This document shows positions 30,632 through 50,143 of a stretch of 64,000 nt of DNA, piece after piece. How positions within the stretch are numbered: the first letter of the stretch is position 1; the number at the start of each line of letters is the position of its first letter. Origin of the DNA: Alphaproteobacteria bacterium (lineage in GTDB: Bacteria; Pseudomonadota; Alphaproteobacteria; Puniceispirillales; Marisalimonadaceae); the NCBI GenBank assembly GCA_004213885.1, contig SGYL01000005.1, positions 1-64,000 of the forward strand, read 5' to 3'. The notes below the pieces were generated by a model, which worked only from the letters and a program-made list of their open reading frames with translations, ran no database searches and had not been told where the DNA came from. Position numbers and translations under genes: made by a program.

Positions 30632-31027
30632 ATGAGATTTTTAGCAAAAATTTTAGTTGCAGGCTTTGTTATTTGGCTTCTTAGTATTGGAATAATGGGA
30701 TTATTTGGTGTTTCAGTTCAATTTCCATTTACAATTACTGAAGAAGGAGAAATTGCTTATTACAGATGGCAAGGCATAAGATTAGCAGTCTTTTTTACTT
30801 TAGCTTATTTTGGGATTCAATATGTACTAGGTTTTAGTAAAGAGGTTTACCCAATAAGTTTTGTTAAGGTTTATATATTTAATATGTGTTTTTTTGGGGT
30901 TATACTAATGTATAGACTAGATGTGCCTAAAGAAGAATATTTAATACCTGCTTTTTGGTTGGCTTTTTTATTAATATTAAATATTGCTACAACAAATCGT
31001 TACCGAAGGCTATTTAAAAAAAAATAA
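30632..31027 (+). CDS. Small integral membrane protein, unknown
   Basis: 131 residues with four hydrophobic segments (about 5-28, 48-66, 78-94 and 104-120) and a basic C-terminus (TNRYRRLFKKK) expected in the cytoplasm. No known family recognised. It sits between two decayed genes at the left edge of the variable region. Confidence 0.62.
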   Translation: MRFLAKILVAGFVIWLLSIGIMGLFGVSVQFPFTITEEGEIAYYRWQGIRLAVFFTLAYFGIQYVLGFSKEVYPISFVKVYIFNMCFFGVILMYRLDVPKEEYLIPAFWLAFLLILNIATTNRYRRLFKKK

Positions 31028-31067
31028 AATTAATTCCAATTTAAACATTAATTATTTTACAAAGACC

Positions 31068-31395
31068 TTAATACTCAACGTCATAAATTATAACACCTCT
31101 ATTTGAAAAAACTTTCCATTCAATACCAGTTTTGGTTTTAAATTCAATTTCAGCTTCTCTAAAAATTTTTTGACATTGTACAAAAAATTTTCATCTTTAT
31201 ATTCCCGCAAATGGCCTAATCTTAGAGTGCCTTCTTTATTCCAAATTTGAGATGCCGTTTGACGGAGTGCTCAAGCATTTTTGAATTTTTGAAATTTTCT
31301 TCCATTATTTTCTCCCATTCCATCTGACCCGCCTTTAAATCGCTTTGGGATTGAAAATCACTAGTTATATAACTCATTAATTTTGAATCTGGCAT
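31068..31395 (-). pseudogene. Frameshifted paralogue of the 45.5-kb small-protein gene
   Basis: From ATG 31395 the minus strand reads MPDSKLMSYITSDF and MEWEKIMEENFKNSKMLEHS. It shifts near 31265 to TASQIWNKEGTLRLGHLREY, and again near 31176 to QKIFREAEIEFKTKTGIEW and NRGVIIYDVEY before TAA at 31068. The QIWN-KG-EY and NRGV blocks align with the gene at 45469 (QIWNVKG, FEYES) and the broken copy at 48.5 kb (VWNKG, NRGIVV). At least two frameshifts, so not expressed as one protein. Confidence 0.72.
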
Positions 31396-31453
31396 TTTGT
31401 AATCTCCATTTTGATAATATTAATATAATACTATAACTTTTAAAATACTCCTC

Positions 31454-31482
31454 TTGCATAATGAACTTTTGAATATTATTAT
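31454..31482 (+). promoter_or_regulatory. Predicted sigma70-type promoter of the glutamine-riboswitch unit
   Basis: TTGCAT at 31454-31459 and TATTAT at 31477-31482 are separated by 17 bases. A start about seven bases downstream would put the first riboswitch helix at the 5' end of the transcript. Confidence 0.62.
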
Positions 31483-31489
31483 ATAGGTA

Positions 31490-31539
31490 CGTTCATCCTT
31501 TAGGACGGAAGTAAGTATTTATATAATACTGAAGGAACG
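31490..31539 (+). promoter_or_regulatory. Glutamine riboswitch aptamer, first of two in tandem
   Basis: A three-way junction. P1 is CGTTC (31490-31494) with GAACG (31535-31539). P2 is TCCT (31496-31499) with AGGA (31502-31505). P3 is AGTATT (31514-31519) with AATACT (31525-31530). The conserved joins CATC, GACGGAAGTA and GAAGGAACGCA match the glnA / Downstream-peptide RNA families, which bind L-glutamine in cyanobacteria and marine metagenomes. The assignment is from memory of the consensus. The fold and the second copy are seen directly. Confidence 0.85.
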
Positions 31540-31548
31540 CATTATCAT

Positions 31549-31595
31549 CGTTCATCTCGTAAGAGACGGAAGTAGGTAATGATGCCGAAGGAACG
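31549..31595 (+). promoter_or_regulatory. Glutamine riboswitch aptamer, second of two in tandem
   Basis: Same architecture as the first. P1 is CGTTC (31549-31553) with GAACG (31591-31595). P2 is TCTC/GAGA closed by GTAA (31555-31566). P3 is GGTA/TGCC (31575-31586). The P2 and P3 pairs differ from copy 1 but remain paired, which is internal covariation. Bases CACCT (31596-31600) directly after P1 can pair with AGGTG (31616-31620) of the ribosome binding site, a plausible expression platform acting on translation. The ON or OFF sense cannot be decided here. Confidence 0.86.
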
Positions 31596-31623
31596 CACCT
31601 AACTTTAACAGAGGGAGGTGACT

Positions 31624-31740
31624 ATGACATACAGACAATATCAATGGAAACAGTGTGTAATTGCACGTAGACGTGCACTTATTCATAAGTTATTGAATTA
31701 TCGTACACCCATGTCTTGTAAGTGCAAATTGGCTACTTAA
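31624..31740 (+). CDS. 38-residue highly basic peptide under glutamine riboswitch control
   Basis: Starts MTYRQYQWKQC and ends with CKCKLAT. GGGAGG (31613-31618) lies five bases before the ATG. It has five Arg (three consecutive at 15-17), four Lys and one His with no Asp or Glu, three Cys, and a probable single helix over about 4-25. Downstream-peptide riboswitches precede short ORFs of this type. In cyanobacteria a glutamine riboswitch controls the glutamine synthetase inactivating factor GifB, also small and basic, so a nitrogen-signalling inhibitor peptide is a reasonable but unproven idea. It is followed by a terminator, so it is a one-gene unit. Confidence 0.78.
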   Translation: MTYRQYQWKQCVIARRRALIHKLLNYRTPMSCKCKLAT

Positions 31741-31753
31741 GCAAACTACTAAT

Positions 31754-31785
31754 GGGAGTAAGTTTAAAAACTTACTCCCTTAAAT
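31754..31785 (+). terminator. Terminator of the riboswitch-peptide unit
   Basis: GGGAGTAAGTTT (31754-31765) is perfectly complementary to AAACTTACTCCC (31768-31779). It stands between two convergent genes and may serve both, although the T tract is weak on both strands. Confidence 0.78.
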
Positions 31786-49707: not shown

Positions 49708-50078
49708 TGATTATATAACTATGCTATAAATTTTGAGATAAAAGATTCTTTTTTTAATAATGTACTAGGAGTCTTTATAAATTATTTAGTTTATTTGATA
49801 AAATAGTAATCAAATATTAATAAATTAATATTGTTTTTGTCCTTACCACTATTGATAATAAAAATGATTAACCTGATGTAATTTTCTAATCATTTAGCAC
49901 TGCTATATATTAATTCATAAAGCATATAACTTTTAGGGTAGGGGTTAAATTTGTCACAATCCTGTCACACACATATTCAAAATACATTGAAAATTAGACC
50001 AAAAAGTATATTATTAAATTAATTACTGTTATCTAAAACGCTAAGTTTTCTAGGGATTTCAGAAGTTCTTGAGAATTT
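49708..50078. other. Non-coding gap at the right edge of the variable region
   Basis: About 370 bases of AT-rich sequence. It has GTCACAATCCTGTCACACAC near 49954-49973 and no ORF that I accept. It ends at the tRNA-Gly fragment. Confidence 0.5.
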
Positions 50079-50143
50079 CTCAGGGGTAGAGCACAACCTT
50101 GCCAAGGTTGGAGTCGAGGGTTCAAATCCCTTCGCCCGCTCCA
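50079..50143 (+). pseudogene. 3' fragment of tRNA-Gly (GCC), probable integration scar
   Basis: From CTCAGGGGTAGAGC onward the sequence is a normal tRNA-Gly: anticodon stem CAACC/GGTTG around TTGCCAA, T arm GAGGGTTCAAATCCCTT, 3' acceptor strand CGCCCGC (50133-50139) and CCA. The 5' acceptor strand GCGGGCG and the first D-stem base are absent; the bases before it (TTGAGAATTT) cannot pair. Integrative elements commonly target the 3' half of tRNA genes and leave such a copy. Confidence 0.8.

Follow-up and report, generated by a model that had tools for sequence, protein, structure and literature searches.

The window, that is, the whole 64,000-nt stretch of DNA analysed here, carries a compact cassette in which two adjacent glutamine aptamers precede a short ORF and a terminator-like hairpin. 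The features to which the text refers are as follows, with the basis of each in brackets.

31028-31779, no strand assigned: island of 752 bp holding the cassette and an antisense pseudogene (31088-31395), missing from six congeners
31490-31494 with 31535-31539, + strand: P1 of copy 1, CGTTC with GAACG (sequence)
31508 and 31540, + strand: G23-equivalent G31508 and C60-equivalent C31540 of copy 1 (numbering mapped from the crystal description in PMC11477058)
31540-31546, + strand: copy-1 tail CATTATC, proposed 5′ strand of a relay helix (duplex energy against permuted pairings)
31549-31553 with 31591-31595, + strand: P1 of copy 2, CGTTC with GAACG (sequence)
31569 and 31596, + strand: G23-equivalent G31569 and C60-equivalent C31596 of copy 2 (numbering as for copy 1; both equivalents are our own mapping, counted from the base that opens P1)
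31575-31581, + strand: GGTAATG, covering the 5′ side and the loop of P3 in copy 2, the proposed 3′ relay strand (helix formed in the predicted ligand-free fold; compensatory changes)
31596-31600, + strand: anti-Shine-Dalgarno (anti-SD) strand CACCT, starting at the C60-equivalent base (covariation in 131 unique units)
31613-31620, + strand: ribosome binding site GGGAGGTG, whose AGGTG (31616-31620) is predicted to pair with the anti-SD strand (sequence)
31624-31740, + strand: ORF of 38 aa, MTYRQYQWKQCVIARRRALIHKLLNYRTPMSCKCKLAT, with its ATG at 31624 (homologous peptides encoded in SAR116 genomes and on 47 viral contigs)
31754-31779, + strand: terminator-like hairpin, GGGAGTAAGTT/AACTTACTCCC (sequence; hairpins of differing sequence lie at the equivalent position in the relatives G019 and G068)

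The original prediction read this region as two adjacent glutamine aptamers, and an Infernal search of the window places both copies above the RF01739 gathering score of 35 bits, with 56.3 bits (E 1e-9) for copy 1 at 31488-31543 (+) and 61.3 bits (E 4.2e-11) for copy 2 at 31547-31599 (+). These two are the only RF01739 matches in the whole 1.41-Mb assembly. The elements said to be shared by the copies (CATC, GACGGAAGTA and GAAGGAACGCA) and the quoted P1, P2 and P3 pairs of both are all found in the sequence; moreover, G22/G23 of J2/3 are present as GG at 31507-31508 and 31568-31569, and C60 follows P1 as C31540 and C31596. The class named in the prediction was right for the glnA motif (RF01739, type 1) and not for the Downstream-peptide motif (RF01704, type 2), which had no match at gathering score within the window and was rejected on that ground. 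Tandem Repeats Finder did not detect the aptamer pair. Judged by its sequence, the locus is a real and well-placed member of a known riboswitch class; the new elements are its host, the peptide family, the phage link and the proposed wiring of the two copies.

The prediction had further described a complete unit with promoter, strong ribosome binding site and terminator. The ribosome binding site and the terminator-like hairpin are there, the latter being missed by the terminator scan because its T-run is poor, but a sigma-70 consensus scan found no promoter of at least 9/12 at the place where one had been put.

In the ligand-bound crystal structure C60 is paired with G23 in J2/3, and without ligand this contact is missing (PMC11477058). 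In the window the equivalent base of copy 2 opens the anti-SD strand, and the predicted fold has the Shine-Dalgarno (SD) sequence paired with this strand; neither P1 is formed in the predicted minimum-energy fold. Across 131 unique units the units' own anti-SD/SD duplexes averaged −5.29 kcal/mol versus −3.80 ± 0.11 kcal/mol for permuted ones, many units being related and the permutation values thus overstating their independence. The two strands covary strongly, as CACCT/AGGTG or GGGTG, CACTT/AAGTG, CACTC/GAGTG, CACCC/GGGTG, CATCT/AGATG, CAATCT/AGATTG and CATTTTC/GAGAATG. Since the linchpin pair and the anti-SD helix both claim C60 and are mutually exclusive, glutamine should expose the ribosome site, and from this conserved pairing we regard it as likely that glutamine turns translation of the peptide ON.

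The opposite direction has to be weighed against this, namely that the ligand steadies P1, which then stacks on the adjoining SD hairpin and stops translation, the peptide being made under glutamine scarcity. P1 and the SD hairpin do adjoin, none of their pairs overlap, and forcing copy-2 P1 to form leaves the hairpin intact, so that the linchpin base would be the only switching element. However, the linchpin pair and the SD hairpin each require C60, the studied riboswitch members are reportedly activated by glutamine (gifB and a Prochlorococcus type 2, or Downstream-peptide, switch; PMC6316151), and the same platform stands before gltB, encoding a glutamine-consuming enzyme, in the genome G012. 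We regard glutamine-OFF control as unlikely. A second question is whether the copies act together. Copy 1 has no adjoining ribosome site, and its tail CAUUAUC is complementary to GGUAAUG of copy-2 P3. Over 42 unique linker/P3 combinations the duplex energy of this helix was −3.80 with its own partner versus −2.11 ± 0.23 with permuted ones, and the excess holds at the level of 8 tail groups (p=0.0001); relatedness among units inflates the apparent independence here as well. Compensatory pairs are CATTATC/GGTAATG, CATTGTT/GGCAATG and, in one lineage, TATTATC/GGTAATA. The competing reading is that the two aptamers are independent and that the complementarity between copy-1 tail and copy-2 P3 is functionless inherited sequence. 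It agrees with the literature, where 157 tandem glutamine aptamer doublets are documented and read as pseudo-cooperative, a steeper response being the accepted interpretation (PMC9481103); it agrees also with the weak anchored pair count (strict column), 0.571 versus 0.551 ± 0.016 for permuted pairs, and with two tail groups, CCGAA and CATGC, in which the relay helix is missing. Against independence stand the group-level excess of own-partner duplexes, the compensatory changes, TATTATC/GGTAATA included, and the linker class CATGC, found in amtB and glnA leaders, where the linker is matched instead by a GCATG downstream of copy 2. We put independence at somewhat under even chances. The anatomy suggests specific coupling of the copies rather than two independent switches, and we see the chances as evenly balanced that copy 1 licenses copy 2 in phage-type doublets. 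A leader/P3 pairing within copy 1, which appears in the minimum-energy fold, was dropped, as it is not kept in G019.

The ORF belongs to a peptide family whose core, MTYRPYQWKxFxxARxRAxVHKILNYR, is kept across SAR116 and viral copies (47 IMG/VR contigs). An aptamer lies upstream in 44/44 viral loci with a readable ORF, as a single copy in 42 and in tandem in 2; the remaining 3 of the 47 loci with a homologous peptide were left unparsed in this count. Across the family's core codons the median dN/dS is ∼0.25, and third codon positions vary most; by this codon-level signature the family is under purifying selection. The predicted product is a 38-residue basic peptide, in whose AlphaFold model a single helix spans residues 3-27 at moderate confidence (mean pLDDT 71.8). 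No relative of it was found in Pfam, PHROGs or PDB, and assignment to a known protein family was rejected accordingly. One might suppose that the ORF is a decoy and that what counts is the RNA or its being translated, given that it is short and has no known relatives beyond the aptamer context; but selection acts at the protein level (dN/dS 0.25) and the invariant core is preserved in both host and phage copies, which makes a decoy very improbable.

Among named genomes, the closest locus is in ‘uncultured SAR116 cluster alpha proteobacterium AG-903-E20’, which matches the region at ∼93% identity. Because this sister genome with the same locus is titled SAR116, we take the host to be SAR116; the same title led us to reject a Pelagibacterales origin, the group in whose genomes the prediction had proposed to survey the unit, while the alphaproteobacterial chromosome setting that it proposed agrees with this sister locus and with the syntenic flanks. 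Contamination of the metagenome bin is unlikely, as the flanks are syntenic with eight congeners and AG-903-E20 has the same locus at ∼93%. In six congeners (G002, G005, G007, G008, G011, G012) window position 31027 directly joins 31780, and therefore the 752-bp island is absent there. AAATTAATT is present at both ends of the island, whose history could be an insertion or a deletion between short repeats, as read from these junctions. Cassettes at other sites occur in three relatives, intact in G019 and G068 and decayed in G033, where there is one aptamer and the ORF contains stop codons. Such a patchy distribution speaks for horizontal movement or repeated loss. The antisense gene at 31088-31395 (−) is decayed into two ORF fragments; it is intact, with 109 aa, in G006, and a homologue lies 2 kb from the cassette in G019. 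Elsewhere in the window, 50078-50132 gives a partial, low-scoring tRNA match (31.9 bits, model positions 10-63), probably a remnant or an atypical tRNA.

The link with phages comes from the 47 viral contigs that carry the homologous unit. Those examined encode a T4-type DNA polymerase, a clamp loader, a PhoH-like protein and a DNA ligase, and the isolates closest to them, T4-like and jumbo myophages, show <60% identity. No isolated phage encoding the peptide was found by tblastn, and blastn with the 53-nt aptamer found nothing in isolated phages, a result of little weight for so short a query. By the distribution of its sequence, the cassette is a mobile unit common to SAR116 and many aquatic phages. 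A lone basic micropeptide behind tandem aptamers, as the prediction put it, is indeed what the window holds, but it is no isolated oddity, the unit being common to many phages.

Viral contigs scanned for the pattern of the aptamer core gave at least 120 stretches, a sample in which both the search pattern and the use of IMG/VR introduce bias. Among the listed aptamers, 169/191 unique single-or-last ones lead into an ATG ORF that has a Shine-Dalgarno-like sequence, and among those 169 listed ORFs 98% have at most 70 aa, with a median length of 45 and a median net charge of +7. The aptamer-linked ORFs among the matches listed fall into ∼20 groups, that of the window being among the largest. The viral loci L059-L138 show many more families of basic 16-65 aa peptides behind glutamine aptamers; some of these peptides have a YRG (DUF4278-like) motif and some end in a common DPRLQKI-like tail.

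Glutamine aptamers in the same order and class also precede nitrogen genes. They stand before amtB in family f3, before gltB in G012, before two amtB genes, glnA and an ATP-grasp gene in G295, and before the ATP-grasp gene alone in family f12. The gltB leader (L008) has a single aptamer and a CACTT/AAGTG platform, consistent with glutamine-ON control. Tandem aptamers precede amtB, glnA and the ATP-grasp gene in G038, G041 and G044 (L003-L005) and in G295 (L287, L293, L296, L297); these tandems differ in their tail (CGGATC or similar), and their copy 2 is enclosed by a CATGC/GCATG pair; this is probably another platform, perhaps an OFF one. In G143 (family f12, a 93% complete genome) no glutamine synthetase match was found, though an aptamer precedes the ATP-grasp gene. 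GlnE is missing in all aptamer carriers of f3, f12 and f144 and present in 258/385 genomes of the class, a pattern that covers three lineages only. In the family of the window (f1), GlnE is half-length, ∼500 aa with one transferase domain (e.g. G000:C4:30228-30950), and closer to the C-terminal half of GlnE. Together this hints that glutamine sensing by RNA may replace the classical cascade.

The target of the peptide is guesswork, because it has neither detectable IF7 similarity (hhalign probability 0.2% against a typed-in IF7 sequence) nor a Pfam match. By analogy, our tentative best guess is that it modulates nitrogen assimilation, for instance by inhibiting glutamine synthetase. In the most specific form of this idea the peptide would inhibit host glutamine synthetase in the manner of cyanobacterial IF7/IF17, and its spread by phages would serve to bring nitrogen metabolism under their control. 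The peptide is small, basic and helical in prediction, it would be glutamine-switched as gifB is, some aptamer-linked phage peptides share the DUF4278-like YRG motif with IF17, and peptide carriers have half-length GlnE only. On the other side, there is no sequence relation to IF7, and half-length GlnE occurs in all family members with a full GlnE match, yet few of them encode the peptide. We regard this specific form, too, as conceivable with rather less than even chances.

Under the glutamine-ON reading with coupled copies, the cassette would work as follows. When glutamine is absent, the copy-2 tail CACCU (31596-31600) would pair with AGGUG of the ribosome site and block translation, and the copy-1 tail CAUUAUC would pair with GGUAAUG of the copy-2 P3 arm and hinder folding of the copy-2 aptamer. 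Glutamine binding to copy 1 would draw C31540 into the G23-C60 linchpin pair and release copy 2, and binding to copy 2 would then draw C31596 out of the anti-SD helix and free the ribosome site. The 38-residue peptide, made at high glutamine, would probably damp nitrogen assimilation as in the gifB/IF17 system, perhaps by binding glutamine synthetase. Aptamer identity, the conserved anti-SD pairing, peptide conservation, the phage link and the empty site were computed here; the whole account, a horizontally shared glutamine-ON cassette with series-wired copies and a nitrogen-damping peptide, we hold to be fairly probable. That phages and hosts share mobile glutamine-induced micropeptides which reset nitrogen assimilation, with doublets in series forming an RNA AND gate for two glutamines, is a more speculative and rather doubtful extension.

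Glutamine riboswitches have been called restricted to cyanobacteria, with the GS, PII and amt associations coming from environmental sequences only (PMC6316151). Against this view, they are now placed on chromosomes of abundant heterotrophic marine bacteria, and hosts can be named for the amt, glnA and gltB associations formerly known from metagenomes only. A literature search, incomplete in coverage, returned no paper joining SAR116 with glutamine riboswitches. Moreover, the peptide family travels with the switch between phages and bacteria at every readable locus, so that phages may be using it to steer the nitrogen metabolism of their hosts. If the series wiring is real, it would amount to an RNA logic element, each aptamer's expression platform being the aptamer that follows.

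Compared with known systems, the locus resembles type 1 glutamine riboswitches of the glnA motif, RF01739 (PMC2864571; Ames and Breaker 2011; Klaehn 2018), in aptamer sequence and structure, in tandem copies and in the 5′ leader position before a short ORF, and differs from them in its SAR116 alphaproteobacterial host, its new peptide family and the proposed relay helix. With the Downstream-peptide motif RF01704 it would share the glutamine ligand, the ON logic and a short downstream ORF (17-100 aa in RF01704), whereas the window lacks a covariance-model match to that motif and its peptide lacks the YRG (DUF4278) motif. As in gifB/IF17 of cyanobacteria, a glutamine riboswitch precedes a small basic protein, but homology was not detected and the peptide has 38 aa against 149 aa for IF17. 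Glutamine riboswitches linked with tmRNA have been described in OM43 phage Melnitz and Pelagibacter phage Mosig (PMC9004378); like these, the present class includes glutamine aptamers in marine phages of streamlined heterotrophs, and unlike these, it is tied to micropeptides and is found also on a bacterial chromosome.
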